This document shows, one piece after another, positions 29,322 to 53,006 of a stretch of DNA of 64,000 nucleotides; the first letter of the stretch is position 1; the number at the start of each line of letters is the position of its first letter. The stretch lies in NCBI RefSeq assembly GCF_019704315.1, contig NZ_AP024597.1:2888501-2952500 (forward strand), written 5' to 3'. The position numbers and the translations under genes are program-made. The DNA comes from Stygiolobus caldivivus. GTDB taxonomy: Archaea > Thermoproteota > Thermoprotei_A > Sulfolobales > Sulfolobaceae. The notes beneath the pieces are model-generated. The model saw only the letters and a list, made by a program, of their open reading frames with translations. It searched no databases and had not been told where the DNA came from.

Positions 29322-30486
29322 CGATACTATCGCTGAAAGGTTTAAGAGGACTAACGTTGAATACTCTACTGACCTCCAGGAGAGGATTGTAAAATCCCGA
29401 GATCTTACTAAGTTTGTGAAATCTCTTTCTATTCCAGACATTGTCGTTTATCCTAAAAACGAGGAAGACGTTATTAAGATCGTGGAATTCGCTTTAGAAG
29501 AGCATGTCCCTATAGTCCCGAGAGGTAGCGGTCACGGCAGTGTAGGAGGTGTTATACCGTTAAAGGGGGGAATATTAGTTGATATGACGAGAATGAATAA
29601 GAGAATCGAGGAGGACGAGGACACGATCACATTGGAGGCAGGTTCACCTATAAATTTTCCAGCTAGGGTATATCCGACTCTCTGGAAAAGAGTTACCATA
29701 GGGGGTAATTTCTGCGGTGGGTCGTGGGGTATAGGTTCTTACATGTACGGTATTAACTGGGACCAAGTAATTGAAGCCAGGATGGTAAACCCGCTAGGTA
29801 GTGTAGTGACCCTAAAAGGAGGGGATATAAAGATCGCGGCTCATGCTGAAGGGACTACGGGGATCGTTACATCTTTAAAAGTCTTGAAAAAGCCTGGATA
29901 TAGAGAGGAAGCGAGGATTTACTTATTCGGGAGACTGAAAGACGCTGTAAGAGCAATAACTAAGGTCTATGAAGAGTCTCCTCCTTTATATCACTTGTTA
30001 CTGAGGTCTCCTCAGATGTCCAGGCTTACTAAGCATCTAGGAGAGTTTAATAAGTGGCAACTTCTTATAGTATATTTTTCTGAGTCGGAACCTGAGGAGA
30101 AGGATCTCCCGCGTCAGAGCTACGTGAACGGAAAAGTCTTATGGGAAAACCGGGATATGTTCTTCGCGGGAGTATATCTTAAACATTTTAATGAAATGTA
30201 TTATTCAACAGTTCATGTTGAACTTGATAGAATGGAGGGTATAATGGAAAAGTTTAAGGACGAGTATCTCGAGGTGGAGTTTGCTAATGATAGGCTAGCC
30301 CACATAGACATTATGTCAAATAGGCCAATCAACTTTACCTTGGATAACCCTTTTAGCGTGGATGACATTAAGATAAATAGTAGGTTAAGGAGAGATCATT
30401 TACAAAAAATTATAAATTATAAAAAAAGATATGATAAAGAAGATCTATTTAACCCCGGTAAGGTTAGTCTGGAGGTATTTCAGTAA
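29314..30486 (+). CDS. FAD-linked oxidase (PCMH/VAO type), paralogue 2
   Basis: 390 aa from ATG at 29314, which overlaps the deaminase stop by 8 bases. It shares long identical stretches with the 16034-17221 protein, including FCGGSWGIGSY and GGDIKIAAHAEGTTGIVT. The FAD phosphate loop is PRGSGHGSVGG, and the C-terminus has YKKRYDKEDLFNPGK. The stop region overlaps the convergent APC permease gene by 23 bases. It probably oxidises the product or substrate of the coupled amidohydrolase; no partner iron-sulfur subunit is seen. Confidence 0.8.
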   Translation: MTDDTIAERFKRTNVEYSTDLQERIVKSRDLTKFVKSLSIPDIVVYPKNEEDVIKIVEFALEEHVPIVPRGSGHGSVGGVIPLKGGILVDMTRMNKRIEEDEDTITLEAGSPINFPARVYPTLWKRVTIGGNFCGGSWGIGSYMYGINWDQVIEARMVNPLGSVVTLKGGDIKIAAHAEGTTGIVTSLKVLKKPGYREEARIYLFGRLKDAVRAITKVYEESPPLYHLLLRSPQMSRLTKHLGEFNKWQLLIVYFSESEPEEKDLPRQSYVNGKVLWENRDMFFAGVYLKHFNEMYYSTVHVELDRMEGIMEKFKDEYLEVEFANDRLAHIDIMSNRPINFTLDNPFSVDDIKINSRLRRDHLQKIINYKKRYDKEDLFNPGKVSLEVFQ

Positions 30487-32062
30487 AGACCATTCTTATA
30501 TCTATTCCGTCCTTTTTCATTCTATACCATTTAACTATTTCATACCACACTTCAGCTGTAATTACTATCCCCGCCAATAGTGAGACTGAAGGTATAATAT
30601 TACCAGAGAATAGATCGTAACCGAAGCCATTGGGTGTATACGTTAATATTCCATATCCTAACATTAGTCCTACAGCACTCCCTACTGCTATTATTGATAA
30701 AATACTTGTAATTAATAATTTAGAAGTTATTTCGTTTTTCTCTTTTTTAGAAAGTTTTAGTGCTCCTAATGAAGCTATAAAGTATTGGAATAACATATAG
30801 CTGATAACCCCGAACATTAGAGATAGAGAAAAGCCCTGATAAATTTCTAGGTAGTTAAAGATTAACGCAATAGCTAAAAATACTAGCGTTGATACGTATG
30901 GTGATTTAAGCCTAACGCTCACGTCAGCAAACTTTTCAGGTAGCATTCTGTCAAAACTAGCAGCAAACATAGCCCTTATACCCGCAACAGCTCCTATGAG
31001 TGCGTAAGAGATGTACCAGGTTAGCCCCGAAATTAACAGTAGTAGAAGTAGTGGGATGTTGTGAATAGCAGGGATAATAACATATGCCAAGAGAGAGTAT
31101 GGGGCAATGGGTATCCCTGAACCGGAAGAGGTAGTCCAGCCGTTTACTGAAGTATATAGGAAGAACCTTTGCCCTATATCAGCAACTATTATGTAGACAA
31201 GTATTACAGAAATTATTGCGGCAACTACATAAGAATAAAGTATCCCTGCTCTGATTGTCTTATATCCCTTCTTTACTTCACCTCCTACCCATACCGGAGC
31301 GTTATTGTAGATGAATAAATTGCCCATGATCATGATCCCTAGCATTAAAGTCCCGAATAAACTAAAGGGGGGTATTGATGATGAGACCAGATCGGAATAA
31401 TAAGGGCCTTTAAACTCTGATGACAGGGAATTAAACGCTGAGACAAATCCTCCCTTTCCTATATATGCAAGGAGTATTATTATGGCTATAGTCCCTACGA
31501 TCTGTAATATGGTTAAACTCGATATGACCCGCGCGACCCACTTTATACTGAAGACCATAACTAAGCCTACTAGTAGTATCATTAGAGTAGTAAAGGCAAA
31601 ATAGTAAGTGGTGTTTGAGATCAGTTCATTTCCTAAGTTAATCAAACCTTGGTTGTGAAAAGCGACTCCTATAGCCTGAAAAAAAGGTACTATTACAAGG
31701 CTCATTTCAGTCTGAACATCAATCCCAATCCCGTAACCGAATAAGTTCACCAAAGCCTGGATGAGTCCCACTCTGGGCCCTAAATATCTCGATACGTAGA
31801 TATAATCAGCTGCTGTTTTAGGAGTTAACCTACTAATATAATAATACATCATCGCCGTGGGAAGAGCAAGCAGTGCTCCAATAACAGTAGCTAATATCCA
31901 GTTTGCCCCGGGGAAGAAGAAGGCGAAGGTTAAAGGATATGCTATACTTGCAGCTGGTGCTAAATACATAAAGTTCATTAGGAATACATCCCTTCCATTG
32001 AGGGTTCTCACCAAACCTGAGGTCTCTCTAACAAAAAGTTTTTTACTTTCCTCTCGTGACAT
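30464..32062 (-). CDS. APC-family amino acid/amine permease, paralogue 2
   Basis: A 532-aa protein of about 12 helices. The N-terminus [16 protein letters not shown] and C-terminus RMVFTEIPPD mirror the 19116-20705 permease, so the two are paralogues. Central VWVGGEVKKGYKTI is the conserved loop after helix 6. It is convergent with the deaminase/FAD oxidase operon and overlaps it by 23 bases. In both places an APC permease of this type sits beside an FAD oxidase of the same subfamily, suggesting a shared pathway. Confidence 0.8.
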   Translation of the reverse strand: MSREESKKLFVRETSGLVRTLNGRDVFLMNFMYLAPAASIAYPLTFAFFFPGANWILATVIGALLALPTAMMYYYISRLTPKTAADYIYVSRYLGPRVGLIQALVNLFGYGIGIDVQTEMSLVIVPFFQAIGVAFHNQGLINLGNELISNTTYYFAFTTLMILLVGLVMVFSIKWVARVISSLTILQIVGTIAIIILLAYIGKGGFVSAFNSLSSEFKGPYYSDLVSSSIPPFSLFGTLMLGIMIMGNLFIYNNAPVWVGGEVKKGYKTIRAGILYSYVVAAIISVILVYIIVADIGQRFFLYTSVNGWTTSSGSGIPIAPYSLLAYVIIPAIHNIPLLLLLLISGLTWYISYALIGAVAGIRAMFAASFDRMLPEKFADVSVRLKSPYVSTLVFLAIALIFNYLEIYQGFSLSLMFGVISYMLFQYFIASLGALKLSKKEKNEITSKLLITSILSIIAVGSAVGLMLGYGILTYTPNGFGYDLFSGNIIPSVSLLAGIVITAEVWYEIVKWYRMKKDGIDIRMVFTEIPPD

Positions 32063-33329: not shown

Positions 33330-34527
33330 GAAGTACATTTGCATTAGCAGTAGTAGTTGTTAATGCTTGAATAGGATTAAGTCCATTAACTGCAAACATT
33401 GCAAAAGCTGTTAAGATGGCTGAGAAATCGATGATGCTATTCCTATAAATGTTAACGCCCTATAAGGAGTATGGTATTTTGGATGGATCTTTGAGAACCA
33501 TTTTGGAATTACATTATCTCTAGCCATAGAGAAGTAAACCCTTCCAGCATTACTTTGCATTGCTACCGCATCAGAAAACGCTGAATTCATTGCAACAAGG
33601 AATAATCCCATCGAGCCTATTATACCTAAATATAATCCCATCACTATTATACCCGATATTGTCTGAACATCTGGGTTTGGATTATTAGTTAATGCTGATA
33701 AATTATTTACTCCCAAACCTGCAACTATAGCATATGCCATTTCAGTCAACACTGCACCAACTATAAATACGCCTAAGCTCAAAGCCCTCAGTATTTGTTT
33801 AGGATGCTCAACTTCTTCACCTAAAGGTGCAGATCCTCCATAGCCGATAAAGCTCGTAATTGAAAAGACCATTGCTAATCCCAAAGCTCCAGCAGGTCCT
33901 CCGTAGGGTGCAAAATCCTTAGCGTATTGAGGCCATGCAAAGGGATTAAATACTGCTAATGTATTATCTGGTGCCTTAGTAATTACAATTGCTCCTATTA
34001 CTGCTAAAAATGCCACTTCGAATAATGAAGCGAATTTCAAAGTAGTAATCTGAGGTCTTATTCCTATTATTGCTAATGTTATTGGAACTATTACGAATAC
34101 TAGAATTAACGGTAACCAGAGCCAAGATGGTAGGACTATATGGTAATAGTAATCTAAGAATGCTGGAATAATAGCACCGCCTATGTAAGTGGGAATTGCG
34201 GCAGTACTTGTTACTTGATATAAGACTTAAAGTAATCCAGATATGGTAGCCTGGTACGGGGCCAAAGGCGTTAGCAATATAACCATAATATCCTCCAGCA
34301 CTTGCATGTCTTTTAGCTAGGTGATATAACGTATTTACTTCTAAATACATTGCCAACGTAGCTAATAGGAATGCTAAAGGTGTTAATGCAAAGGCATATG
34401 CGATTGCAGAAGTTATAAAGACTACTACGTCACATGCTGGTGCCATTGCTGCTATTTCTTCAACTAAAGCCCCTAATGTACTAACTTGACCCTTCTTCAA
34501 ACGGGGAACTTCTTGCTGACTCATCAC
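33330..34527 (-). pseudogene. Broken APC/amino-acid permease
   Basis: The N-terminal half (from ATG near 34524) starts MSQQEVPRLKKGQVSTLGAL and continues to VPGYHIWITLSLI, then shifts frame near 34220. The second half, 33411-34040, carries GEEVEHPKQILRAL and AGRVYFSMARDNVIPKW, typical of APC permeases. A second frameshift near 33430 throws it out of frame before the ISH3-like element removes the C-terminus. At least three lesions; non-functional. It is not a close match to the two intact APC permeases. Confidence 0.85.
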
Positions 34528-39428: not shown

Positions 39429-39500
39429 TCCTACCTGCCTTTCTTGTATTAGTTAAGAAATTTTATATGAAAATTCTATATAAATTTTTAACTACTTTTA

Positions 39501-40217
39501 GCATTTTACGTAAAATCCTAGGTACTCCACGAGGTACTCCCCTTGGGGGAACTCGCCAACGGGCACGGACCTGCCACCCTCGACGACCCGTGCGTCGGAC
39601 TTGAGCTCCCCCACAGTGTTTCCACGGAGAGTCCTAGAGTTCACGTACCACGAGTCGAAGACTATAGCCTTCACGTTGAAGCCGGCGAGGGAGGGTAACA
39701 ACTCTAGGGAGACGTTGACCTTTGTCTCGGACTCCACCTCCTCACCCCTTCCCCCACCTTTCTGGGTACGTAAGGGGTGGTTGGCTACATTTCGTTGTTG
39801 GTCAAGTCCTTGACCCCTATTACAAGGAGCTGGATCGAGGGCCCGGACTCCTTGTGGGCCCTGCAGTAGAAGGCTTGTGTCCCGTCCCTTGAGACCGGCA
39901 TAGCTCTAGCGTAGGGCTTGTGGTCGTGGGTGTCGTCGACTATGAGGAGGACAGGGTGGTCCCCTACCAAGTGCTTCACTACCTCGGTCAAGCTTGTACT
40001 AGCTGTCTAACCCCTTCAGCACGGTCTCGTAGTGCGTCCCCGCCTCTTGGGCTATCTCTGTGGTGTTCCCTCTCGTGGTCGCTCCCAACACTAGCCTCCT
40101 TGCGACGTCCTTTCTTACCCCAGTGAAAGACTGGGCTACCTCGTTGATTGCCTCCTCAAGTGCTTTGTAGTACTGCTCCCTTGCCCTCTCCTTGATCATA
40201 CCAAAATTAAACGCCAT
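39501..40217 (-). pseudogene. Transposase remnant (IS4-superfamily-like)
   Basis: Three disconnected frames. The N-terminal piece is 39999-40217 (MAFNFGMIKERAREQYYKAL). 39785-39991 has LLIVDDTHDHKPYARA with the first catalytic Asp, and 39498-39737 has AIVFDSWYVNSRTL with the second. The C-terminal part with the catalytic Glu is missing, so an internal deletion as well as frameshifts has occurred. The family is judged from the DDT and FDSWY motifs. Inactive. GC content is clearly higher than in the neighbours, suggesting a foreign origin. Confidence 0.65.
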
Positions 40218-40273
40218 AATTGTTAAAAAGTTTTCACGGTTCGCCTACCCTGTCAGGATTTTCCGATAAAAGC
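39501..40273 (-). mobile_element. Decayed DDE-transposase element with palindromic end
   Basis: The left end gcattttacgtaaaatcct (39501-39519) contains a 14-base palindrome. The right end, read on the other strand (gcttttatcggaaaatcct, 40255-40273), matches it at 15 of 19 positions. The same end sequence recurs alone at 57536-57554. The element abuts and truncates the aminotransferase gene on its right. Confidence 0.6.
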
Positions 40274-40794
40274 TACTCTATTATTTTAAAGTCATAGTCC
40301 TCGGCTAGCTCCAGTAAATATTTCTTATTATCATCATGAGTTACGTATCCAGTCGGATTATTGATCGTGACTGTATACAGAAAAGAAGGTCTCACTCCCT
40401 TCTTTAATATTTTTTCCAGTTCTTCTACTTTAATTCCTTCACTATCTAGCGGTATCGTATATACTGAACCCCCATAAGAAAATCCATAAGAAAATTTAAG
40501 TAAGCTTATAAACCCCTGATAGGTAGGTTCTTCTATAACTATATCTTTATTCATCAAAAAGGATAAGATATAAAGGGCTTCCTTAGCACCACTGGTAAGG
40601 ACTATATTGTTTTTGTCTGTTTGTATCCCCCGTAATTCTACCAGTTTTGCTAACGCTTCTCGGGCTTCAACATACCCCTCTACGGGACCATATTGCAGAG
40701 AACGTATATCTTCTATTACCTTTAATGATGCTTCTTTTATTAGAGGAATAGGAAGTAGTTCAGGATCCGGTATACCAAAACTAAGATCGATCAT
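40273..40794 (-). pseudogene. Class I/II aminotransferase, truncated by an IS
   Basis: Only the first 173 residues remain, from DLSFGIPDPELLPIPLI through SGAKEALYILSFLM (PLP phosphate region) and NNPTGYVTHDDNKKY. The frame stops at DFKIIE exactly at the border of the transposase relic, before the PLP-binding Lys and the C-terminal domain. It resembles the MocR/ARO8-like aminotransferases of archaea. It begins 6 bases after the M20 hydrolase stop, so it was the last gene of the catabolic operon. No trace of the lost C-terminus is found beyond the IS. Confidence 0.85.
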
Positions 40795-40800
40795 ACCCCT

Positions 40801-42015
40801 TCAACTGCCGGCAAGCTTAAGTAGTGTTAATTTAAGTACTTCAACACCTTTATAGGCATCTTCAAAATCAGTCCATTCATCAGGAGCATGGCTAATTCCA
40901 CCCTTACTAGGTACAAAGATCATTCCTATTTTGGTTATCTCTGACATTACTTGAGAATCGTGCACTGCTCTACTGGGCATCTTCATATACTGATATCCTA
41001 GCTGGATAACGGACTCCTCGATAGTCTTAACTATTGTTTCATCACACATAGCCGGGTTCTCTATATATGTCTCGTAATTTAATCTTACTCCTTCTTTTTC
41101 AGAAACATTCCTCGCATAATCTATAACTTCTTTTCCAACTTCTAACATGTCGTTTCTCGATAGAGATCTAATATCTATTCCTATTCTTACGGAACCCGCT
41201 ATGACGTTGACCACATTAGGTGAAACTTGAAAGTACCCTACTGTACCTACAAGGTCTTTTCCCCGTCCTAGTACAATTTCTCTCACTTTAGTTACCGTAG
41301 CTGAGGCAGAGATCATCGGATCTGATCTCATATTCATTGGAGTAGTCCCTGCGTGAGCTTGCTTACCGTTAAAATTCATCCAGATTCTGTGAACCCCTAC
41401 TATCCCCGTCACAACTCCTATCTGCTTCCTTTCTACCTCTAGGATCGGTCCCTGTTCTACATGGAGTTCCAAATGAGATAAAATGGTTGAGGAAAACCTC
41501 TCTATCACACCTGCGTTTGATCTCTTAAGAAACCTTTCAAGTGCATTTCCAAACGATATCTTCTCATACTTACCTTCAACGGCATGTAATGTGCTCTTAT
41601 CGATCAGCCCTGCAAAGTATTTACTTCCTGCAAAAGGCATAAAAGCATTACCTTCTTCATCTGTGAAGACCACTAAGGCTATAGGTAATTTAGTCTGTAC
41701 CCTATCTTCATTTAACTCTCTTATTGCTTCTAGGCCACCTAAAACTCCTAATGCACCATCAAACATCCCTCCATTAAGGACAGTGTCTATGTGGGAACCA
41801 GTAGTAATAAATGGTTCTTTAACTTTACCTTCTCTCAAACCAATTATATTCCCTCCTTGGTCTACGTATACTTTTAATTTAGCTTCCTTCATTTTTTCTA
41901 TTACATAAAGTCTTGCTTCTATATCTGGCTCCGATAATGCTGGTCTAGATACTCCTCCCTTAGGATCTTTCCCTATTTTACCTAAACTTTCTAAATCTGA
42001 TTTAAGCCTCTCCAT
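40801..42015 (-). CDS. N-carbamoyl-L-amino acid hydrolase / allantoate amidohydrolase (M20 family)
   Basis: A 404-aa dimetal amidohydrolase. Ligands are the His and Asp in TGSHIDTVLNGGMFDGALG, Glu-Glu in FTDEEGNAF, a His in LELHVEQGP and the C-terminal GGISHAPDEWT. GKQAHAGTTPMNMRSDP is the substrate-binding signature of the hydantoinase/carbamoylase group. It hydrolyses N-carbamoyl amino acids or allantoate, releasing ammonia and CO2. The start overlaps the XDH-type gene by 25 bases. The family is sure; carbamoylase and allantoate hydrolase cannot be separated by eye. Confidence 0.88.
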   Translation of the reverse strand: MERLKSDLESLGKIGKDPKGGVSRPALSEPDIEARLYVIEKMKEAKLKVYVDQGGNIIGLREGKVKEPFITTGSHIDTVLNGGMFDGALGVLGGLEAIRELNEDRVQTKLPIALVVFTDEEGNAFMPFAGSKYFAGLIDKSTLHAVEGKYEKISFGNALERFLKRSNAGVIERFSSTILSHLELHVEQGPILEVERKQIGVVTGIVGVHRIWMNFNGKQAHAGTTPMNMRSDPMISASATVTKVREIVLGRGKDLVGTVGYFQVSPNVVNVIAGSVRIGIDIRSLSRNDMLEVGKEVIDYARNVSEKEGVRLNYETYIENPAMCDETIVKTIEESVIQLGYQYMKMPSRAVHDSQVMSEITKIGMIFVPSKGGISHAPDEWTDFEDAYKGVEVLKLTLLKLAGS

Positions 42016-43796
42016 TCTCTCACCGGAATCCTATAGACCGGTTTATAATTCGAGATAGCGTTAGAAACTGAAGCCAACGAACCTATAATTGAATTTTCTC
42101 CTACTCCTCTCACCCCCAGGGGTGTCTTAGAAGGTGTAGATATTACGTCCACATCCGTTAAAGGTGATTCAACTGCGGTTGGTATTATGTAATCCGCCAT
42201 GTCAGTAGACGATTCAAATAAAACTTCTCCTAGACCTTGTACAAACCCACCGATAATTTGTCCTTTAACAATCTCACTGTCTATTACGTTTCCTGCATCA
42301 ACAACAATGTATTGATATATTATTTTTTCACCATCAAATACGGTTAATTGACCTCCTACAGCACCTAAAATTTCTTCAGTTTCATAACACGCGTATCCCT
42401 CACCCTTCTCAAGAAATTGCTTAGCTGCTAAATAAGCAGCGTTTCCTGCGGTAGTTAAAGACCTGCTGGCCCACGTACCGTAACCCTCCACTGAAGAATC
42501 ACCGCATATTACTTCTACTGGACCGTTTACCGTTAAAGTATTTCTCACTATCTTTTCTATAGATTTACATATTCCTTGTCCTAATTCTGTGACACTTGTC
42601 CTAACCACTACTTTTCCTTTTTCATTTACTATTTTTACGCATTCCACTCCTTTTATCTCTTCTCCCCGTTTCTTTAGATATTCAGTATTTGGGGCAAAAG
42701 CGTAATGGACATAAAGACTTATTCCTACACCTTGTCTAAATTTTTTACGTTTTTCATCTAATTTATCGAGAACTAATCTGAGATTTCCGGCGTCAAATTC
42801 CAAGTCTCTTAAATTATTTTTTCTGAATTCTAACGGGTCTACTTTTAGTTCTTTTGAGATCTCATCCATCAACCTTTCGACTACAAAAATAGCTTCAGGT
42901 CTTCCAAACCCTCTATATGCACCATAAGGCGGTTTATTAGTGAGGATCGCTCTAACGTTATAATAAACGTTATAAGAGTAAACGTTTCTCAAATGCTTTA
43001 AGGTTACAAAGAGGGGAGATAATCCTATCCAAGGAAGAGGGAATGCACCGACATCATACTCTATCTCGTCAAAGATCCACTTTATCTTATTGTTGTTATT
43101 ATCTTCTACACAGGCTTTTATCTTATGGACTTGAGACCTAGATTGAACTAACATTAAATCCTCGTTTCTGGTCTCCTTCCATTCAAGATCTATACCCTTA
43201 GTATAAGAGAGTAGTATAATGCTAACTTCATCAGGTAAAATATCTTGCTTTCCTCCGAATCCTCCACCTAAAGCATACGGAACCACTTTTATTTTTTTAG
43301 TAGTCTCTAAGATTTCATATAGAATTTTCTCAACTACTGTTGGTGCTTGTGTCGACATATGAATAAGAAGTGTGTCACCGTAGTTACCCACTTTAAGTTC
43401 ACGGGGCTGTATATAGTAGGGTGATACCCTATCGAGGCTGAATTCCCTCTCTACCACTATTCCTTCGCACTCGTCTTCAAATGAATTTTTTGACTCATAG
43501 ATAATATTATCAGGGATATCTTGGTATAATGGCCCATTAGCTTCTTTGTATTCTACTTCCACTTGGTCTTTTTTATCCCATGCAGTGTATTCATCTTCTC
43601 CAATTACGATCCCTAATGCATGGCCTACAAATAACGCCTTTCTATCCGCTAAAGGTTTGACGCTTATCCTTTTCATCCCCTCTAAGTGGGCTATGCTGGG
43701 TATTGAATAATTTATATCATCTACCGTTATAATATTTCCAGAAAGAGAAAAATAAGCATGGGGGTAGTTAGATCTTACAAATGAAACAAAAGGCAT
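41991..43796 (-). CDS. Xanthine dehydrogenase-type molybdenum-binding subunit (orphan)
   Basis: 601 aa, shorter than the usual 700-770. It has the molybdopterin and active-site landmarks: GGGFGGKQDI, PYGAYRGFGRPEA, VTELGQGI, GYGTWASRSLTTAGNAA, and the C-terminal GVRGVGENS with the catalytic Glu. No genes for the 2Fe-2S or FAD (CO_deh_flav) subunits lie next to it in this window. The N-terminus is trimmed compared with relatives. It sits 18 bases after the dihydropyrimidinase gene in the same operon. It probably hydroxylates a purine, pyrimidine or other N-heterocycle. Confidence 0.85.
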   Translation of the reverse strand: MPFVSFVRSNYPHAYFSLSGNIITVDDINYSIPSIAHLEGMKRISVKPLADRKALFVGHALGIVIGEDEYTAWDKKDQVEVEYKEANGPLYQDIPDNIIYESKNSFEDECEGIVVEREFSLDRVSPYYIQPRELKVGNYGDTLLIHMSTQAPTVVEKILYEILETTKKIKVVPYALGGGFGGKQDILPDEVSIILLSYTKGIDLEWKETRNEDLMLVQSRSQVHKIKACVEDNNNNKIKWIFDEIEYDVGAFPLPWIGLSPLFVTLKHLRNVYSYNVYYNVRAILTNKPPYGAYRGFGRPEAIFVVERLMDEISKELKVDPLEFRKNNLRDLEFDAGNLRLVLDKLDEKRKKFRQGVGISLYVHYAFAPNTEYLKKRGEEIKGVECVKIVNEKGKVVVRTSVTELGQGICKSIEKIVRNTLTVNGPVEVICGDSSVEGYGTWASRSLTTAGNAAYLAAKQFLEKGEGYACYETEEILGAVGGQLTVFDGEKIIYQYIVVDAGNVIDSEIVKGQIIGGFVQGLGEVLFESSTDMADYIIPTAVESPLTDVDVISTPSKTPLGVRGVGENSIIGSLASVSNAISNYKPVYRIPVREWRGLNQI

Positions 43797-43814
43797 TATG
43801 ATTACACCGTCTCC

Positions 43815-45209
43815 TTAGACTAAAACGGGTAACTTACCTGGTATATACATACCAGAGCCTTTTTTGCCCAATACTTGCCCTTCTTCATATACTATTTCTC
43901 CCCTTCTGATAGTCATTACGTTCCAGCCTTCCACTTCCAACCCGTCGTAAATAGTGTAATTAATATTACTGTGTAATAGATCAGGTGATATTCTAACCTT
44001 TCTGTTGGGGTCTATTACAGCGAAGTCAGCGTCACTCCCCGGTAAGATTGCTCCCTTTTTAGGATAAAGTCCGAATAATTTAGCTGGATTATAGGAGGTT
44101 ACTTCAACAAACCTTTCCATACTAATTATGTCCTTCTTGACTCCTAAGCCGAAAAGTAACGGTAGAATAGTTTCTACGCCGGGGACACCGTTAGGTATTT
44201 CATGGAAGGGAGGGACTTTCTCCTTGTATCTTTTCTTTTGAGCGTCATTATAAACACAGTGGTCACTTCCCACTGTAAATATATCTCCAGATGCCAGTCT
44301 GTACCATAATTTCGTCCTCTGTTCATCACTCCTTAAGGGCGGGCTCATGATATATCTATAACCGTCAGGTCTTGTTAAATAGTCTGTATTGAGAACAAGG
44401 TAATGGGGTGTGGTCTCGTTGTAAAACTTTAGCCCCTTCTTTCTGTATTCGGACATGATGTCTACTGCCTCACCAGTTGAAGTGTGAACTATGTACATTT
44501 TCACGTTCTTACCTATCATACTGGCAATTGAAGCTATCCTGTTTGTAGCCTCTATTTCTAATATATCAGGTCTAGAATAATAATGATATACAGGATCCGC
44601 TTTTCCTTCGGAAAGAAACTGCTGTATTAACTCGTATATTATTTCCCCATTTTCAGCATGTATACCTACTACTCCACCATTATCACTTATCTTCTTTATT
44701 AGTTGATATAATTGACCGTCTAATAGCATTAGTTCGTTCTTATAAGCCATAAAAAGCTTAAAACTAACCACTCCATTTCTAATTACTTCTGGGATCTGTT
44801 CTAGTATTATAGGGTTAATTTCTCTAATAATCATATGTAGTCCATAATCTGACATTACCTTAGCATCAGCTTTTTCCCTCCACTGCTTATACGCCGTCAT
44901 CAGGTCCTGCCCCGGAGCCGGAGTTATGAAGTCCACTATCGTCGTTACTCCTCCTGCGACTGCTGCTCTCGTACCGTGATAGAAGTCATCAGCTGTAACC
45001 TCTCCCATGAAGGGAAATTCCATATGTGTATGTCCGTCAACCAACCCCGGTACAACGTATTTCCCCGAGAGATTAACAGTTTTATCTGCTTGTTCTTGGA
45101 TATCACCTGATATCTTTACTATCTTTCCGTGTTTCACTCCAATATCTCCTTCAAACGGTCCAGCATGGGTAAATACTTTAGCATTTTTTATCAACAAATC
45201 TAAAGACAT
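43815..45209 (-). CDS. Dihydropyrimidinase / hydantoinase
   Basis: A 464-aa cyclic amidohydrolase. Metal ligands are DGHTHMEFPF, the carboxylated Lys in SFKLFMAYKN, GIHAENGE, IVHTSTGEA and the catalytic Asp in TVGSDHCVYN. This set and the length fit dihydropyrimidinases and D-hydantoinases, which open dihydrouracil or hydantoin rings to N-carbamoyl acids. It is first of an operon with the Mo subunit, the M20 carbamoylase and the truncated aminotransferase. A TATA-like ttataattta on the minus strand (45231-45240) lies about 26 bases before the start. Confidence 0.9.
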   Translation of the reverse strand: MSLDLLIKNAKVFTHAGPFEGDIGVKHGKIVKISGDIQEQADKTVNLSGKYVVPGLVDGHTHMEFPFMGEVTADDFYHGTRAAVAGGVTTIVDFITPAPGQDLMTAYKQWREKADAKVMSDYGLHMIIREINPIILEQIPEVIRNGVVSFKLFMAYKNELMLLDGQLYQLIKKISDNGGVVGIHAENGEIIYELIQQFLSEGKADPVYHYYSRPDILEIEATNRIASIASMIGKNVKMYIVHTSTGEAVDIMSEYRKKGLKFYNETTPHYLVLNTDYLTRPDGYRYIMSPPLRSDEQRTKLWYRLASGDIFTVGSDHCVYNDAQKKRYKEKVPPFHEIPNGVPGVETILPLLFGLGVKKDIISMERFVEVTSYNPAKLFGLYPKKGAILPGSDADFAVIDPNRKVRISPDLLHSNINYTIYDGLEVEGWNVMTIRRGEIVYEEGQVLGKKGSGMYIPGKLPVLV

Positions 45210-45396
45210 ACGGTGGGTATGTATTTAAATTAAATTATAAGTGTTTTCATTAATTCGTTTATTATTTGTACAAATTTTAAGGTATGTAGGAGACTTTCAA
45301 GTTAAAAGTTTATAACTCTCAAGCGTAATAAAATTGGAAATTCTACCAGTTCATCATATGGAATATATAAAAATTGTCTAATAGTTTGAACTTATT
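45210..45396. promoter_or_regulatory. Divergent promoter of the two catabolic operons
   Basis: 187 bases. A leftward TATA is at 45231-45240 and a rightward tatataaaaa at 45364-45373, about 29 bases before the ATG at 45397. Both transcripts appear leaderless. A shared operator is likely here but none is obvious. Confidence 0.5.
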
Positions 45397-46443
45397 ATGA
45401 TAGATCTGTCGGTAGAATTTGTAGGACTCTCCCTTCCTAATCCTTTCATTGTAGGTTCTGGGCCTACAACTGGAAATCCAGAAAAGATAATAAAGGCTAT
45501 TAAAGCTGGGTGGGGTAGTGTAGTAGTAAAGACAATAGGTGATTCGATAGTTAGAAAGGCGGTAAGGCCTATGTACGGAGTTTTTAAGAGAGGGAGAGAT
45601 CTAGTGGCGTTTGAAAACCTCGAATTAATAACAGAGGATCCTTTAGAAGCTTGGGACAAGTATCTCAAGGTTATTAAAAGTGAGGTTAAAAACCCCATAA
45701 TAGTGAGCATAATGGGCGGTTCTGATTACGATGAATGGGTAAAGTTAGCTAGGTGGGTTGAGGAAAGAGGTGCAGGTGCGGTAGAACTTAATTTTGGGTG
45801 CCCTCATGGAGAACCTGAAAGAAAAACAGGGGCGTTTATAGGGCAACATCCTGATCTTGTATTCCAATATACTAAAGAAGTAGTGAGGGCAGTAGGGATC
45901 CCAGTAGTTGTAAAGCTAACTCCCAATGTCACCGATATAAGCGAAATAGCTAAAGCCGCGGAGCTTGCTGGGGCTAAAGGCGTAACAGCGATAAACACCG
46001 TGAATGGGGTCATTGGTGTAGATATAGAGAGAGGGACTCCTCTCCCAGATGTCAATGGGTATACGACTTATGGAGGTATTTCGGGACCTGCTATTAAGCC
46101 CATCGGTCTAGCCGCAGTCTCTAAAGTTAGGACTTCGACACAACTGGAGATCAGCGGAGTGGGAGGGATATTTGATTGGAGAGACGGGGTAGAATATATG
46201 ATGCTGGGGGCAAGTACTGTACAGTCTGTTACATACACGATGATCAAGGGTTTCGATTTCGTAAGAGAATGGGAAAAGGAGCTAGTGTCCTTTTTAGAAA
46301 GGAAAGGTTATAGTAGTGTAAGAGACTTAATTGGTATTGCATCGAGCAAGATAACATCATATGAATTTTTGGAAAAAGTTACTAAGAGAAGGACTTCAGT
46401 AGATGAGGAGATAACTTCTGTGAGAGGTGAGGTCTATGGTTAA
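45397..46443 (+). CDS. Dihydropyrimidine dehydrogenase-like flavoprotein (PreA/DHOD family)
   Basis: A 348-aa TIM-barrel FMN enzyme. It begins VEFVGLSLPNPFIVGSGPTT, then has VELNFGCPHGEPERKTGAFI, VVVKLTPNVTD, a TTYGGISGPAIKPIGL phosphate-binding segment and ISGVGGI. This is the PreA/dihydroorotate dehydrogenase pattern. The C-terminal ferredoxin domain and the PreT-type electron-input subunit found in classical dihydropyrimidine dehydrogenase are absent, so it must take electrons from elsewhere. It precedes the nitrilase gene with an 8-base overlap and is divergent from dihydropyrimidinase: the first and second steps of reductive pyrimidine breakdown. Confidence 0.85.
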   Translation: MIDLSVEFVGLSLPNPFIVGSGPTTGNPEKIIKAIKAGWGSVVVKTIGDSIVRKAVRPMYGVFKRGRDLVAFENLELITEDPLEAWDKYLKVIKSEVKNPIIVSIMGGSDYDEWVKLARWVEERGAGAVELNFGCPHGEPERKTGAFIGQHPDLVFQYTKEVVRAVGIPVVVKLTPNVTDISEIAKAAELAGAKGVTAINTVNGVIGVDIERGTPLPDVNGYTTYGGISGPAIKPIGLAAVSKVRTSTQLEISGVGGIFDWRDGVEYMMLGASTVQSVTYTMIKGFDFVREWEKELVSFLERKGYSSVRDLIGIASSKITSYEFLEKVTKRRTSVDEEITSVRGEVYG

Positions 46444-47278
46444 GGTAGCTATGATCCAAATGGGTAGTGTTGAGTCTAAGTCAGCTAATATAAATAAGGC
46501 CCTAGATTATGCAGAGAAAGCAGTAAAAGAGGGCGCAGAACTAATCGTATATAATGAATTATTTACTACACAATATTTCCCTGCTATAGAGGATCCAAGG
46601 TTCTTTGAATTAGCCGAACCGGAGGACGGTCCTACGGTAAGGACTTTTCAAGAGTTCTCACATAGACATAAGGTAGGAATGGTTATAACAATATTTGAGG
46701 AGGATAAGAAGATCAGGGGAACATATTATGATACTGCAATCTTCATAAATAAGGGAGAAATTCTAGGAAAATATAGGAAAACACATATACCTCAGCTACC
46801 TGGGTACTATGAAAAGTTCTACTTCAAGCCTGGAAAAGGTTATCCGGTATTTGATTTCGGTGGGTATAAGGTCGGAACGGTTATATGTTATGATAGGCAT
46901 TTCCCTGAGGGTCCAAGGATATTAGCTTTAAAGGGAGCGGATATAATTACTATCCCCACTACTACTAACTTTTACCCTGAACTATGGGAGCTTGAGTTAA
47001 GGGCACATGCTTCATTTAATACAGTATATGTAGTGGGTGTTAATAGGACTCCTGAGGTATTTCAAGGAAGAGAGATCTCTTACTTAGGTAAAAGCTTAGT
47101 AGCTGATCCGATGGGAAAGATAGTGAAAGAAATGGACGGCTCTGAAGGGGTTGAAGTAATTGACCTTGACCTTGATTTTATAAGACAAAGGAGAATTAAA
47201 GCACCGTTCTTAAAGGATAGAAAGCCGGAAAATTATACGGATATATCGCAGTTATATATCGAAAGTGTGCAAGAATGA
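46436..47278 (+). CDS. Nitrilase-superfamily amidase (beta-ureidopropionase / N-carbamoyl amidase)
   Basis: About 280 aa from ATG at 46436, inside the end of the previous gene and after a gaggtga-type SD. The catalytic triad is clear: Glu in LIVYNELFTTQYFP, Lys in KYRKTHIPQLPGYYEKFYF and Cys in GTVICYDRHFPEG. The CYDRHFPEGPR motif is typical of beta-ureidopropionases and N-carbamoylputrescine amidases. In the pathway it would cleave N-carbamoyl-beta-alanine to beta-alanine, CO2 and ammonia, the third step of reductive pyrimidine breakdown. Confidence 0.88.
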   Translation: MVKVAMIQMGSVESKSANINKALDYAEKAVKEGAELIVYNELFTTQYFPAIEDPRFFELAEPEDGPTVRTFQEFSHRHKVGMVITIFEEDKKIRGTYYDTAIFINKGEILGKYRKTHIPQLPGYYEKFYFKPGKGYPVFDFGGYKVGTVICYDRHFPEGPRILALKGADIITIPTTTNFYPELWELELRAHASFNTVYVVGVNRTPEVFQGREISYLGKSLVADPMGKIVKEMDGSEGVEVIDLDLDFIRQRRIKAPFLKDRKPENYTDISQLYIESVQE

Positions 47279-47326
47279 ACTAATTTTTCTCTTCTCAAAA
47301 TCTTTCTATTCCAGGTGAATCACATA

Positions 47327-48112
47327 GTGGAAATCAGGATTTTATTAACCGGTATTACTGTTCAAACTAACAGAGGTTTTCTAATGACCTCCACGGTTAC
47401 GTTAATTGAAGACAAGGATCTCACTATCTTGGTGGATACTGGTAATTTTGAATCTAGAGATTTACTCGTAAATTCCCTATGTGAAATAGGGTTAAGCCCT
47501 GAAGATATAGATGTTGTTGTTCTTACCCATTTGCATTGGGATCATTGTCTTAACGTCGATTTATTCAATAGCTCTCACATTATAGTAAACGAAAAGGAAA
47601 TGAGAAGTACTGTACTTAGTGGACTATCAGATAAATTAACAGGTTATTTTAAGAATATGCTAAAGGAAAGTAGTAACCTATTAACAGTTAACGGGAATTT
47701 CAGTATATCAGATAAAATAGAAGTAATAGAACTAGCCGGTCACACTGAAGGCAGTATGGGAGTTAAAATAGAGTATGACGGTAAAGTAGTGGTTATAACA
47801 GGTGATGCTATTCCCAACTTAAGATCTTTTAAACGAGGAATACCAGACTTCATATTTTACGACTCTATAAAAGCTAGAAAAACAATTAATAAGGTAAAAA
47901 AAGAATTAAAGCCGGATATAATAATACCCGGGCATGATATTCCGTTTAATTTCAAGGGTAAGTATATTAAAGCTGATGTAATTAATTTCCCTAAGGACAA
48001 CGCAGTAGAGTTAAGATTCAGGACCGATGAGGAAAAAGATCTTCTAGTTACTGTAAAATATACATCAGATATTATTAGACCAAGCAGCGTAATAAAAGAT
48101 AGATCAGTATAA
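47327..48112 (+). CDS. Metallo-beta-lactamase-fold hydrolase
   Basis: 261 aa from the GTG at 47327, preferred because ggtga at 47314-47318 is well spaced; a GTG at 47315 is also possible. The zinc motif is THLHWDHCLN, followed by His in ELAGHTEGSMG, Asp in VITGDAIPNL and His in IIPGHDIPF. Closest in style to N-acyl homoserine lactonase/YcbK-like MBL proteins, so it may open a lactone or lactam. It is third in the rightward operon after the ureidopropionase, which suggests a ring-opening or detoxifying role. Confidence 0.8.
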   Translation: MEIRILLTGITVQTNRGFLMTSTVTLIEDKDLTILVDTGNFESRDLLVNSLCEIGLSPEDIDVVVLTHLHWDHCLNVDLFNSSHIIVNEKEMRSTVLSGLSDKLTGYFKNMLKESSNLLTVNGNFSISDKIEVIELAGHTEGSMGVKIEYDGKVVVITGDAIPNLRSFKRGIPDFIFYDSIKARKTINKVKKELKPDIIIPGHDIPFNFKGKYIKADVINFPKDNAVELRFRTDEEKDLLVTVKYTSDIIRPSSVIKDRSV

Positions 48113-48206
48113 CAGTTTACTACTTGAATTTTTTATATTATATATACATTAAATTTATATATATAATATAATAAAATAGAAAATTCACTATATCACCTTA
48201 TCCTTC

Positions 48207-49085
48207 TTATAGTATCTTTCCTTCTTTAAATAAATTCACGGCTTCCCTTAAAGTAATAAATTCTATGTTGGGAAAACTTTTGATGTATTCTATTAGTTCC
48301 TCTAATCTCAGTATACCTTGAACCCTACCGCTTACGTCAGGGTGTATTGTGTAAATCAGTATACCGCTCTTCTCTTTTTTATAATAATAGTCGAAGTGTT
48401 CTTTAAATAGGACTTTATAAACTATATCTGGATGAGTCCATCCGTAATTATAGTAAGGATGTTTCATAAACATTTGTGGTGGAAGATCGTCTAAATACCA
48501 CGACACGGGGAATTCTATTAACCTAGTTTCTTCTCCGAACTCATATGGTTTCATCCATTCATCAGGGTCTTTGTTATAATCAATCTTATACCACTTGTCT
48601 CCTTTCCTTACATAATAAGGATGGAACTCGTTTCCCATTAAGCTACTATCATATTCAAATCCCAACTCAATCAACACATTAAGAGTATTTGGACCGAAGT
48701 CCCACCAAGGTTGCCTGTTGCCTGTTGGCTTTTCACCGGTCAGCTTATAGATTAAGTCTATATCCTTTTTAAATATTTTCATTTCTTGTTCTAGTGATAA
48801 TCTGTTAGGATCTTCATGAGAATAACCATGAGTACCTATTTCATGGCCTGCATCTACTACTTTCTTGATCTGAGTTCTAAATGTTTCTATGGAATGTCCA
48901 GGGACAAACCATGTTGCTTTAATTTTAAATGATTCTAACAGGTCTAATAGTCTTAATATACCTATTTTACCGGCAAATTCACCTCTGGATAGGTCGCACA
49001 GCGAGTCTTGGCCTCCATATGAACCCAACCAGCCCGCTATAGCATCAACATCTATAGTTATAGAAATGTAGTATTTGTCCTGCAT
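48207..49085 (-). CDS. Polysaccharide deacetylase-fold hydrolase (PuuE/PgdA-like)
   Basis: A 292-aa NodB-fold protein. The catalytic Asp-Asp is in ITIDVDAIAGW, the metal His pair in GHEIGTHGYSHEDP, and later motifs are RQPWWDFG and YTIHPDVSGR. No signal peptide, so cytoplasmic. This length and the WFVPGHSIETF segment fit the PuuE allantoinase / Helicobacter PgdA group rather than cell-wall deacetylases. In this setting a cyclic-ureide hydrolase such as allantoinase is plausible. It is divergent from the NCS1 permease gene. Confidence 0.78.
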   Translation of the reverse strand: MQDKYYISITIDVDAIAGWLGSYGGQDSLCDLSRGEFAGKIGILRLLDLLESFKIKATWFVPGHSIETFRTQIKKVVDAGHEIGTHGYSHEDPNRLSLEQEMKIFKKDIDLIYKLTGEKPTGNRQPWWDFGPNTLNVLIELGFEYDSSLMGNEFHPYYVRKGDKWYKIDYNKDPDEWMKPYEFGEETRLIEFPVSWYLDDLPPQMFMKHPYYNYGWTHPDIVYKVLFKEHFDYYYKKEKSGILIYTIHPDVSGRVQGILRLEELIEYIKSFPNIEFITLREAVNLFKEGKIL

Positions 49086-49240
49086 ACTAGTCGGTATAGT
49101 TTGTTTTTACTTTAAATGTATTTTTGCATCTCCAAGGATAATCTTGATCAAATAGGCATAGTTAAAATTAAACTATTGGAAAATATTCATACTATTGCCG
49201 GTTAAAGCTTAAATAATATTTAACATTCTCATCAACTACA

Positions 49241-50704
49241 ATGGCTCAAGAAGAAGTGTCTAATGTGAAATTAGATCTATCTGATTACGGACAAGGACAA
49301 ACTACAGTATCTCCTAAATACTATAATGAAAATTTAGTCCCAGTCCCTAAAGCTCTAAAGAATTGGAATTGGATAAATTATTCTACAATATGGGCAGGCA
49401 TGTCCCATAACGTGGTCGCTTTCGAGTTAGCCGGTTTGTTGACATTCGAATACGGGGCTCCGTTAGCGTTATTTATCGTAGGATTTGCTTACGGTACTCT
49501 ACTTATAGCACTTTACTTGAATGGTCATATAGGTGCCAAGTGGGGAATACCATATCCAGTAGCTGTGAGACCGATGTTTGGTTTAAGAGGAGCTGCATTA
49601 CCAGTTGTGATGAGAGCAGCTGTAGCGTTGTTCTGGTTTGCTGTTCAGACATATGTAGGCGGTACTATAATAGATGCCGTGATATCCATATTTTATCCAG
49701 CATGGAAGTCCCTAACGGCAGATATATTAGGGATGCCCGAGCACCTAGCTATCTCGTTCTTTGTATTCTGGTTATTAAACGTCATAGTACTATTCAGAGG
49801 AATGAATGAAGTAAAGAACTTCGAATTGGTAGCGGGACCTCTAATCGTGGCGACATTAGGCGGATTATTCGCATATGGGATTGAGAAGGCTCACGGTCTA
49901 GGTCCTCTATTTTCGGTAACTGGTTCCGCAACTCCTTCTGAAATAGGACTATCTATCGCTTCAATGGCCGGTGTGTGGGCCACATTAGTGCTAAATATAC
50001 CCGATTTTACGAGGTTTTCTAAGTCTCAAAAGGATCAGCTTATAGGTCAAGCAATAGGTTTACCTATAGTTGTTACGTTATTTTCCTTTATAGCTGTGGG
50101 AATAACATCTACAATGATCTACCTTTATCATATTCCTTCCAGTCAGGCAGTTAATTACGTCAACCCTGTAAACATAATGTATCTCTTTACTGGGAATTCC
50201 CTCTTAGCTCTCTTAACGGGCGTAAGTTTAGTAGTAGCTACAGTATCCGTAAATGTAGCAGCTAATATAGTATCACCAGTCTATGACCTTATAGCTCTCT
50301 TCCCTAGAAAATTGAAGACTTGGTCGATCTCTGCCGTCGTAGCTGCTATAGTAGCACTGTTTTACGTGCCACAACTATGGTATAATAACGCCTCAACTAT
50401 TTTCGACCTACTAAACGTGATAGGTGCTGGGCTAGGCGCTATAGCAGGGATAATGATTGCGGACTACTGGATAATGAGAAAAACTAATTTGAGCTTAGTA
50501 GACCTTTTCATGCCAAGAGGGCAGTACTGGTATAATGAAGGTATAAATTGGAAGGCTCTATTGTCATTAGCAGTAGCTTTTGGAATTCCTATAATAGGCT
50601 TTATAGTACCGGCGTTATCGGCATTATATGATTATGGATGGTATTTGTCAGTCGGCGTTAGCCTACTCTTGTATCTGTTGTTAAACAAAATGGTAAAGAG
50701 GTAA
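49241..50704 (+). CDS. NCS1-family permease (uracil/allantoin/hydantoin type)
   Basis: A 487-aa protein of 12 helices. The N-terminus LVPVPKALKNWNWINYSTIW is the canonical NCS1 signature, with GAKWGIPYPVAVRPMFGLRG after helix 2 and LNIPDFTRFSKSQKDQ in helix 6. The C-terminal MRKTNLSLVDLFMPRGQYWY is also typical. A TATA-like aataatatt sits 25-30 bases upstream. It is followed by an FAD oxidase and an amidohydrolase, so the three may import and process one ring compound. Confidence 0.87.
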   Translation: MAQEEVSNVKLDLSDYGQGQTTVSPKYYNENLVPVPKALKNWNWINYSTIWAGMSHNVVAFELAGLLTFEYGAPLALFIVGFAYGTLLIALYLNGHIGAKWGIPYPVAVRPMFGLRGAALPVVMRAAVALFWFAVQTYVGGTIIDAVISIFYPAWKSLTADILGMPEHLAISFFVFWLLNVIVLFRGMNEVKNFELVAGPLIVATLGGLFAYGIEKAHGLGPLFSVTGSATPSEIGLSIASMAGVWATLVLNIPDFTRFSKSQKDQLIGQAIGLPIVVTLFSFIAVGITSTMIYLYHIPSSQAVNYVNPVNIMYLFTGNSLLALLTGVSLVVATVSVNVAANIVSPVYDLIALFPRKLKTWSISAVVAAIVALFYVPQLWYNNASTIFDLLNVIGAGLGAIAGIMIADYWIMRKTNLSLVDLFMPRGQYWYNEGINWKALLSLAVAFGIPIIGFIVPALSALYDYGWYLSVGVSLLLYLLLNKMVKR

Positions 50705-50819
50705 AATGTTCAATTTATTTTATCAGCAAATTAATTTTTTATTAAATTTAAATCTTTTTTTGTTTATATAGTTATGTTAAGAATATTAACTAAAGAATAA
50801 AATTTAAAATGTTTACAAA

Positions 50820-52061
50820 ATGGTGGAAGATATGATGTTAACATATATTATTAAAGAACTAGAAGATATATTCCCTCGAGACCAATTAATTTTGAGCAAA
50901 GAGACATTAGAAAAAGAGGGAAGATCTCCTTATAACGTCTCACCCGCACTAAAGAAACTAGAAAGACCGCCCGATGCTGTAGTAAAAGTAAGAAATGAGG
51001 AAGATGTCAGAAAAATTGTAACTTTATCATCGAAGTATAATATCCCTCTCATACCTTACGGTAATAAGACCGGAACACTAGGACAGACTATTCCAATCCA
51101 TGGAGGAATAATGGTAGACATGAAGGAATTTAAAGGAATAATAGATGTAAAACGAGACAGTATATCCTTATACCCTGGGACTAGGATAATCGACGCCCTT
51201 AAGGAATTAGGCAAAGATAATAAGGAACTAATGGTATTCCCGAGCAGTTATCACATTGCTACAGTAGGAGGATATATAGGGGCGGGAAACGTAGGGATAG
51301 GGGCTTTTCAGTACGGGTATTTTTATCATAAAGCGCTATCATCTGCTAAAATCATATCACCTAAGGTTGAACTTGAGTTAAGAGGTGAAGCTGTGTTAGG
51401 CATTGCCCAAGCCGCAGGCACTACCGGTATAGTGACTAAGGCAGAGTTCTTAACCGTGGATAGAGATGACTGGGAGGAGCAAGTTATCTTTTGTAAAGAC
51501 GTATCTTGCGTAAAGAATTCCATGAAACTATTGCTTAACGACCCTCTTAAGACGAGGAGAGTCACTATTGAGGATTATGAGACTTTTACGAGGGTCACTT
51601 CCAAAGGAGGATGTCTTTGGAATGTAATAGTTTCATCTAAGCTAAAAGTCGGTACAAAGATCGATAAGGTATTTGATGCTATTGCGTTTGCTGCGATATA
51701 CGTGTACTTTAATAAGAAGAGCCCGTATAGGAGATACCATTACGAAGCCAAATTGCTAGATCTTGAATCATTCATAGAAATATCTAACATATTAAAACAT
51801 AAGTTAGGTCCTTCTATAATGATTCACGGTGATGTGATGAATATTAAGTCGAAGCCGACGGTTTATGCGGTATTTATGTCTGATATAGATAATTTCGACT
51901 TAATAATGAGTATTTTACATGATTATGGTTATTATTACAACCTTCACTCATACCAAATAAATGATTACCATGAAGATTCTTATGTTATGCAAAAAATAAT
52001 CAAACTAAAAAGGCATGCCGACCCCGCTGACTTACTTAATAGAGGAAAACTAAGATTTTAA
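50820..52061 (+). CDS. FAD-linked oxidase (PCMH/VAO type), paralogue 3
   Basis: A 413-aa protein; an alternative start at the ATG at 50832 would remove four residues. The FAD loop is IPYGNKTGTLGQTIP, and IATVGGYIGAGNVGIGAFQYG and AQAAGTTGIVTKAEF follow the order seen in the two other paralogues, with lower identity. The C-terminal KLKRHADPADLLNRGK is the family tail. It lies between the NCS1 permease and the ACMSD-like amidohydrolase and starts 115 bases after the permease. Substrate unknown. Confidence 0.78.
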   Translation: MVEDMMLTYIIKELEDIFPRDQLILSKETLEKEGRSPYNVSPALKKLERPPDAVVKVRNEEDVRKIVTLSSKYNIPLIPYGNKTGTLGQTIPIHGGIMVDMKEFKGIIDVKRDSISLYPGTRIIDALKELGKDNKELMVFPSSYHIATVGGYIGAGNVGIGAFQYGYFYHKALSSAKIISPKVELELRGEAVLGIAQAAGTTGIVTKAEFLTVDRDDWEEQVIFCKDVSCVKNSMKLLLNDPLKTRRVTIEDYETFTRVTSKGGCLWNVIVSSKLKVGTKIDKVFDAIAFAAIYVYFNKKSPYRRYHYEAKLLDLESFIEISNILKHKLGPSIMIHGDVMNIKSKPTVYAVFMSDIDNFDLIMSILHDYGYYYNLHSYQINDYHEDSYVMQKIIKLKRHADPADLLNRGKLRF

Positions 52062-52079
52062 CTTGTGAGAGGGGTGACC

Positions 52080-53006
52080 ATGAATAAATTAGCTATAGAC
52101 TTACACTCCCATTATTATCCTAGACCATTAGCGAAAAAGTTAATAGAATCAGGAGTCCTCAATGTAAAAGATGAAAAAATAATTCTCACGTGGAATGGTA
52201 GAAGATCAGAGGCAACAAGATCTATAATAGATATAGAAGATAAAAAGAAAGAATTAGATAAATTTCAGATTTATGCTGTTTTATCTGTACCTAATCCGTG
52301 GACATATTTCATAAGCGACGCGAGAGAAGAAGTAAAAATAGCTAAAGAATGTAATGATGAGCTCGCCTTTTTATCTAGAAAATTTCCAGATACCTTTGGT
52401 GCACTTGCCACTCTTCCGCTAGGTGATATACAAGGATCAATAGAAGAGGCTGAGAGAGCAGTTAAAGAATTAGGACTTTTAGGTTTTATTATAGGTACCG
52501 GAATTAAGGGAAAGACCATAGCTGACGAAGATTTTTATGAATTAGTCAAATTCCTAGAAAAATTAGGAAAACCCATCTTTATTCACCCTGGTACTTTATT
52601 TATTAGCAATTTTGAAGACGTCATCTCCGTTATAGCTTCGTTTCCCTTTGAGACTACATACGTTTTATTAAAAATAATACAAAAAGGTTATAACCTAAAA
52701 ATAATAGTCCCTCACGGAGGTGGATTTATCCCATATCAATTAGGGAGGATAAACTTGTTAAAGGAGGTATTTAATATTACCGAATTCAAACCAGAGGATT
52801 ACATCCTTAACCACTTGTATTTTGATAGTGTATTGTACAAAGACAGTGAAGTTAACTTCTTGGTGAATACTGTAGGACTAGATAAGGTAGTGTTCGGGAC
52901 AGATCACCCTTTTACTGTTTCCCAGATCGAAAAATCCTTGTCATTTATGAAAAAATATGGAAAGAGGGTATTAATCGATAACGCGATACAATTATTGGGT
53001 CTTTAA
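52080..53006 (+). CDS. Amidohydrolase 2 family protein (ACMSD/isoorotate decarboxylase-like)
   Basis: 308 aa from ATG at 52080, fixed by a strong ggggtga SD 3 bases upstream; an in-frame start at 52065 includes the SD and is disfavoured. The metal-binding motifs are LHSHYYP (H-x-H), KPIFIHPGT, VPHGGGF and FGTDHPFT with the catalytic Asp. This family includes non-oxidative decarboxylases such as isoorotate, 5-carboxyvanillate and ACMS decarboxylases, and some hydrolases. Context with an NCS1 carrier suggests a carboxylated N-heterocycle. It starts 18 bases after the FAD oxidase stop. Confidence 0.82.
   Translation: MNKLAIDLHSHYYPRPLAKKLIESGVLNVKDEKIILTWNGRRSEATRSIIDIEDKKKELDKFQIYAVLSVPNPWTYFISDAREEVKIAKECNDELAFLSRKFPDTFGALATLPLGDIQGSIEEAERAVKELGLLGFIIGTGIKGKTIADEDFYELVKFLEKLGKPIFIHPGTLFISNFEDVISVIASFPFETTYVLLKIIQKGYNLKIIVPHGGGFIPYQLGRINLLKEVFNITEFKPEDYILNHLYFDSVLYKDSEVNFLVNTVGLDKVVFGTDHPFTVSQIEKSLSFMKKYGKRVLIDNAIQLLGL

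Follow-up and report, generated by a model that had tools for sequence, protein, structure and literature searches.

Does a crowded group of catabolic genes in a thermoacidophilic archaeon encode a single degradation route, or do several functions lie side by side? The question is raised by 12.7 kb of the window, i.e., the whole stretch of 64,000 nucleotides analysed here (G000:C1:2888501-2952500, in the 2,958,410-bp single-contig genome of Stygiolobus caldivivus). There, a first-pass annotation had listed a PreA-like dehydrogenase, a dihydropyrimidinase/hydantoinase, a nitrilase-type ureidopropionase, an M20 carbamoylase/allantoate hydrolase, an XDH-type molybdenum subunit, a PuuE-like hydrolase and several neighbours, and had suggested one route for pyrimidines, hydantoins or purines. 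All the listed open reading frames (ORFs) are found where it placed them and their broad family assignments are upheld by Pfam (Table 1). The "island" is a mosaic made of a conserved three-gene core and of looser neighbours. A search of the open-access literature brought up no description of such a cluster from Sulfolobales.

Table 1. Features of the locus, with positions in the window and supporting matches (scores in bits).
Feature	Position	Strand	Support or remark
Degenerate ISC1217-type transposase remnant	39500..40260	-	two pieces match PF04693 DDE_Tnp_2, E 2.5e-17 and 4.3e-31
Truncated class I aminotransferase, pseudogene	40273..40794	-	173 aa vs 365-aa G136 homolog, 43%
M20 amidase (hydantoinase/carbamoylase or allantoate amidohydrolase group)	40801..42015	-	TIGR01879 366 vs cut-off 204; NF006771 409 vs 399
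XDH-type molybdenum subunit, 601 aa	41991..43796	-	PF02738, PF20256
Dihydropyrimidinase (PydB/D-hydantoinase), 464 aa, core	43815..45209	-	TIGR02033 493, cut-off 393
Divergent promoter region, DHP/PreA	45210..45396	.	187 bp; same layout in six other genomes
PreA-type dihydropyrimidine dehydrogenase, FMN barrel only, 348 aa, core	45397..46443	+	NF006183 398, cut-off 335
Carbon-nitrogen hydrolase, probable beta-ureidopropionase (PydC), core	46427..47278	+	PF00795 187
Metallo-beta-lactamase-fold hydrolase (MBL)	47315..48112	+	PF00753
HP0310/HxnM-type hydrolase, probable cyclic imidase	48207..49085	-	PDB 3qbu, E 1.6e-93 over 281 residues
NCS1-family nucleobase/allantoin-type permease	49241..50704	+	PF02133 268; TIGR00800 292 vs cut-off 353
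GlcD-like FAD oxidase	50820..52061	+	PF01565
Amidohydrolase family 2 (ACMSD-like)	52065..53006	+	PF04909 78

The core is formed by the dihydropyrimidinase gene (DHP) and, diverging from it, the PreA and nitrilase-type genes (45397-47278). Among the 197 genomes of the order that were searched, DHP has orthologs of at least 70% identity in seven (G011, G066, G078, G090, G119, G136 and G183, all Sulfolobaceae; 70-82%), and PreA has orthologs of at least 67% in the same genomes except G119, where DHP is found with a different nitrilase. In all six PreA-bearing relatives, DHP faces the PreA-nitrilase pair, with core identities of 67-82%, and the three genes also stand together in four Thermoplasmata MAGs. 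Both orthologs are missing from G108, the one further genome of this genus in the list. The DHP-PreA gene order exceeds chance: in the 31 listed Sulfolobaceae, DHP occurs in eight and PreA in seven, all seven being shared and adjacent (hypergeometric P ~3e-6 for the overlap, shared ancestry being ignored). In the comparison of gene order that the first-pass annotation had named as its check, the PreA, dihydropyrimidinase and nitrilase core is kept together, usually with the NCS1 permease (whose orthologs in G136, G066, G090 and G183 are 73-77% identical and lie close to the core). Compared across relatives, the DHP-PreA intergenic region is poorly conserved in sequence and holds no clear common operator; a sigma-70 promoter scan is unsuited to archaea.

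We propose that this conserved core is a module of reductive pyrimidine degradation (Pyd) leading from uracil to beta-alanine, a reading to which we give a probability of roughly 0.8 and which, as a prediction, draws good support from conserved residues and from independent gene neighbourhoods. The NCS1 permease would import the base, the FMN of PreA would be the site where uracil (or thymine) is reduced to the dihydropyrimidine, DHP would open the ring of the latter to yield N-carbamoyl-beta-alanine, and the nitrilase-type enzyme would hydrolyse this product to beta-alanine, CO2 and ammonia; substrates and direction of the reactions are thus presumed to be those of the uracil route. By family, the three activities are the same as those of bacterial and eukaryotic PydA, PydB and PydC (which act with PydD and a semialdehyde dehydrogenase), and they are clustered here too; in related archaeal clusters they are joined by genes for an aminotransferase and a semialdehyde dehydrogenase.

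Regarding DHP, the earlier dihydropyrimidinase/hydantoinase call is confirmed by the NCBIfam dihydropyrimidinase model, and the motifs HTH, SFKLFMAY, HAEN, HTST, GSDH and NGVPG are all found. Its nearest solved structures are a dihydropyrimidinase and a D-hydantoinase (E 2.8e-111), to which it is about equally close. This closeness, together with the presence of D-carbamoylases among the nitrilase relatives, would also suit a route for hydantoins and N-carbamoyl amino acids, with DHP as D-hydantoinase and either the nitrilase as D-carbamoylase or the M20 amidase as L-carbamoylase. Such a route appears improbable to us, since the most constant partner of DHP is a PreA with the pyrimidine site of dihydropyrimidine dehydrogenase (DPD), the M20 gene is found at just three of seven relatives' loci, and the Thermoplasmata clusters hold cytosine-deaminase-like and beta-alanine-type genes. 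As for the nitrilase-type protein, its membership of the CN-hydrolase family stands, with the catalytic Glu, Lys and Cys motifs NELF, YRKTH and CYDRH, but the name ureidopropionase comes from context, as no ureidopropionase cut-off is reached among the equivalog models. With 67-81% orthologs in the core of six Sulfolobaceae and 62% orthologs in the Thermoplasmata Pyd clusters, this gene context makes it a probable beta-ureidopropionase.

Gene neighbourhoods outside the window also point to pyrimidines as the substrates of the core. At four Thermoplasmata MAG loci, PreA (55-57%), nitrilase (62%) and DHP (55-57%) are accompanied by NCS1 permeases and a cytosine-deaminase-like protein. One of them (L020) reads as a single run: Lrp regulator, class III aminotransferase, methylmalonate-semialdehyde-type dehydrogenase (TIGR01722 493, above the subfamily cut-off of 448.5), PreA, nitrilase, two NCS1 permeases, cytosine-deaminase-like protein and DHP. 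The name of the penultimate protein is provisional because its score (362 vs 438) lies below the curated cut-offs; as its product would be uracil, the reducing direction is favoured for PreA. In Sulfolobaceae, the core and the NCS1 permease of G078, probably Sulfurisphaera tokodaii strain 7, have as neighbours a semialdehyde dehydrogenase, an Lrp regulator and an aminotransferase. Their order agrees with the published one of ST1114 to ST1116, in which ST1115 is BarR, a regulator that is responsive to beta-alanine and governs its degradation, in papers that make no mention of pyrimidines (PMC6801745, PMC4977709); from gene position, we infer a link between the two. In the window's genome, an aminotransferase 73% identical to that of G078 is encoded ~80 kb upstream (G000:2849636-2850958), and it is to this class III enzyme that beta-alanine would probably be handed; for the semialdehyde dehydrogenase, the same genome has no close copy (best match 35%). 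If the proposed route is correct, aerobic thermoacidophilic archaea would own a full path from uracil to beta-alanine, and this path would supply an upstream source of ligand for the BarR regulator of Sulfolobales.

The novel part of the locus is a PreA which, judged from sequence, has neither Fe-S clusters nor a PreT partner. The PreA-like call passes its cut-off, but the alignment spans only positions 1-342 of the 422 of the NF006183 model. Every pyrimidine-site residue checked is retained, with K574, N609, E611, N668, C671, H673, K709, N736 and T737 of pig DPD all kept in the alignment. The only cysteine of the protein, C135, aligns with the catalytic C671, by which a loss of the catalytic cysteine is ruled out; having a single cysteine, PreA should be unable to hold an Fe-S cluster. 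No CxxCxxCxxxC 4Fe-4S motif is found in it or in its ten clade relatives (eleven proteins, from seven Sulfolobaceae and four Thermoplasmata), and two such motifs each are present in E. coli PreA, three bacterial relatives and eight other Thermoproteota proteins. A tree built on the barrel only unites the Fe-S-free proteins in a single clade (support 100/99); its deeper nodes are unsure, and long branches meet. This short form occurs in 5 of 400 Thermoplasmata genomes. An Fe-S tail encoded as a separate ORF behind PreA was ruled out, the start of the nitrilase gene overlapping the end of PreA by 17 bp. PreT adjoins PreA in G315 and G208, both with an Fe-S-bearing form. Where PreA is Fe-S-free, PreT finds at best partial matches (~35%, eleven genomes) in ORFs of thioredoxin-reductase length, and a genome-wide search ruled out a PreT elsewhere in the window's genome; loss of the Fe-S tail therefore appears to accompany loss of PreT. 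An AlphaFold model of PreA, computed with an input of nine sequences, reaches a modest pLDDT of 64.5, and a Foldseek search with it confirms no more than the DPD barrel.

The dihydropyrimidine dehydrogenases characterised in the literature consulted receive their electrons through parts that are missing from the short PreA, the known PydA types using either NAD(P)H via an FAD module or reduced ferredoxin via retained Fe-S domains (PMC7332683). In the survey of 3419 PydA candidates, the forms described are NAD(P)H-linked or are ferredoxin-dependent with retained ferredoxin domains (PMC7332683), whereas PydA is here a bare FMN barrel. E. coli PreA is 35% identical to it and shares the pyrimidine site except for His673 (Gln in E. 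coli) but, unlike it, has its two 4Fe-4S motifs and a gene adjoining PreT; E. coli is moreover without PydB and PydC (PMC7332683). In the ferredoxin-dependent PydAc of Clostridium chromiireducens, the NAD(P)H/FAD domain is missing as in the PreA of the window, but the Fe-S domains are kept, whereas the archaeal protein has none. Because neither an Fe-S relay nor PreT is present, the FMN of PreA would be reduced directly by a soluble donor such as NAD(P)H, ferredoxin or another flavin carrier. We hence lean, by a modest degree, towards a bare-FMN-barrel dihydropyrimidine dehydrogenase in Sulfolobaceae and some Thermoplasmata that would reduce uracil without Fe-S relay or PreT, with a donor new to this enzyme class. 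If so, the long Fe-S electron path regarded as basic to dihydropyrimidine dehydrogenase would be dispensable, and this small heat-stable form would offer a simple model of the FMN site of an enzyme that clears fluoropyrimidine drugs and is hence of medical interest.

Sulfolobaceae live with oxygen, and the Fe-S-free PreA could be imagined to work in reverse, as a dihydrouracil oxidase similar to the stand-alone class 1A DHODH-like enzymes of fungi. Fungal proteins of this kind have been shown to be dihydrouracil oxidases (PMC10395836) and, as class 1A DHODH, they resemble PreA in being one FMN barrel that has neither an Fe-S domain nor a partner subunit. Yet they belong to another sequence branch, for which oxidation is the expected direction (PMC10395836), and are described as class 1A-like whereas the PreA of the window groups with PreA/DPD. 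Oxidase and DHP would also compete for dihydrouracil, and the cytosine-deaminase-like neighbour in Thermoplasmata suggests uracil as the starting substrate, so that we hold the oxidising direction to be unlikely and retain uracil reduction for the core.

Around this pyrimidine module, the imidase-like, M20 and XDH-type genes form a loose attachment, with presumed accessory roles in the use of imides or of further N-heterocycles. The supposed PuuE-like hydrolase scores 52 where the PuuE cut-off is 424.6 (TIGR03212) and is instead a full-length relative of HP0310. By alignment it belongs to the HP0310/HxnM cyclic-imidase group: it can be aligned end to end with HP0310, its metal ligands are kept, and its motifs align with D12, D14, H86 and H90 of the latter (PMC3084791). 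HP0310 is inactive on allantoin and is apparently the binder of some small molecule (PMC3084791); HxnM and a P. putida relative are cyclic imidases, and the ring opened by HxnM is that of a cyclic imide on the nicotinate degradation route of fungi (PMC9304392). The product of the window's gene is thus predicted to be, probably, a cyclic imidase, and imidase-like genes adjoin the core in G136, G066, G090 and G119. The carbamoylase/allantoate hydrolase call of the M20 amidase proved sound, both the hydantoinase/carbamoylase subfamily and the PRK09290 allantoate amidohydrolase subfamily cut-offs being passed, and 55-60% orthologs lie near the core in G066, G090 and G119. DHP, M20 and an imidase-like gene also share one contig in L015, a Nitrososphaeria-type MAG. 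On this contig (L015:676-3481), genes of the asparaginase family and of the maleate-isomerase/arylmalonate-decarboxylase type flank the HP0310-like gene and might suit the breakdown of cyclic imides; an asparaginase-like gene, identified by translation, is found beside the HP0310-like gene of G119 too.

The other neighbours are less constant. The MBL and ACMSD-like genes have no match at the seven relatives' loci, and the FAD oxidase has matches of only 28-35%, in two of these seven loci. Seven GlcD-like FAD oxidase paralogs are found within ~100 kb (window 16034, 29290 and 50820; L007:12763; L008:2796 and 9190; L070:5221), several of them adjoining cytosine-deaminase-like amidohydrolases and APC transporters.

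For the XDH-type protein, the molybdenum-subunit domains are borne out, as are the motifs GGGFG, GAYRGFG, GQG and GVGE, but this compact protein stays under every equivalog cut-off and its name goes no further than the type. Its gene is separated from DHP by an 18-bp gap and overlaps M20 by 25 bp, a place in the DHP operon that it occupies only in the window's genome: no ortholog is present at the relatives' loci, and the best match outside the genome (46%) is to a different paralog. No FAD or 2Fe-2S subunit gene stands beside it, the three Fer2_2 genes of the genome being elsewhere. One conserved XDH-DHP-M20-aminotransferase operon was considered and ruled out, the XDH matches of the relatives being the second paralog. 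Immediately behind this second XDH-type molybdenum subunit (L008:12500-15750) comes another cyclic amidohydrolase, 40% identical to DHP. Eight other Sulfolobaceae retain the pair, and no FAD or 2Fe-2S genes were seen beside the L008 pair. The last gene of the DHP operon, the truncated aminotransferase, breaks off at an ISC1217 remnant that holds an internal stop codon; its alignment ends at residue 177 of the G136 homolog, and its other half was not found in the window.

A single purine, allantoin or ureide route through the whole island, in which XDH would oxidise a purine, the PuuE-like protein or DHP open allantoin, M20 split allantoate and urease use the urea, could draw on the XDH-type, M20 and NCS1 genes, on the allantoate amidohydrolase score of M20 and on a urease operon 30 kb away (6040-10652), but we hold it to be improbable given the distance from the PuuE model, the grouping of that gene with the allantoin-inactive HP0310 (PMC3084791), an XDH unique to this genome and without nearby FAD/2Fe-2S partner, and the lack of any place for PreA or nitrilase. 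The broader proposal that all the listed genes serve one route is not sustained either, with a broken aminotransferase, an XDH that lacks orthologs at the relatives' loci, MBL and ACMSD-like genes that are unmatched there, weak FAD oxidase matches, and a "PuuE" gene that is no allantoinase by its own family model.

Elsewhere in the window, the urease operon comprises, from ORF translations, a UreAB fusion, UreC and accessory genes, with another NCS1 permease at 12964-14409; in G136 and G090, the surroundings of the core likewise include a urease-type gene. At 33411-34527, two overlapping ORFs share what was one amino acid permease gene, probably now a frameshifted pseudogene. Finally, a C-terminal EIPPE (or EIPPD) is common to many APC-type transporters, including those at 19116-20705 and 30464-32062 of the window and those of L007, L008, L036 and L038.
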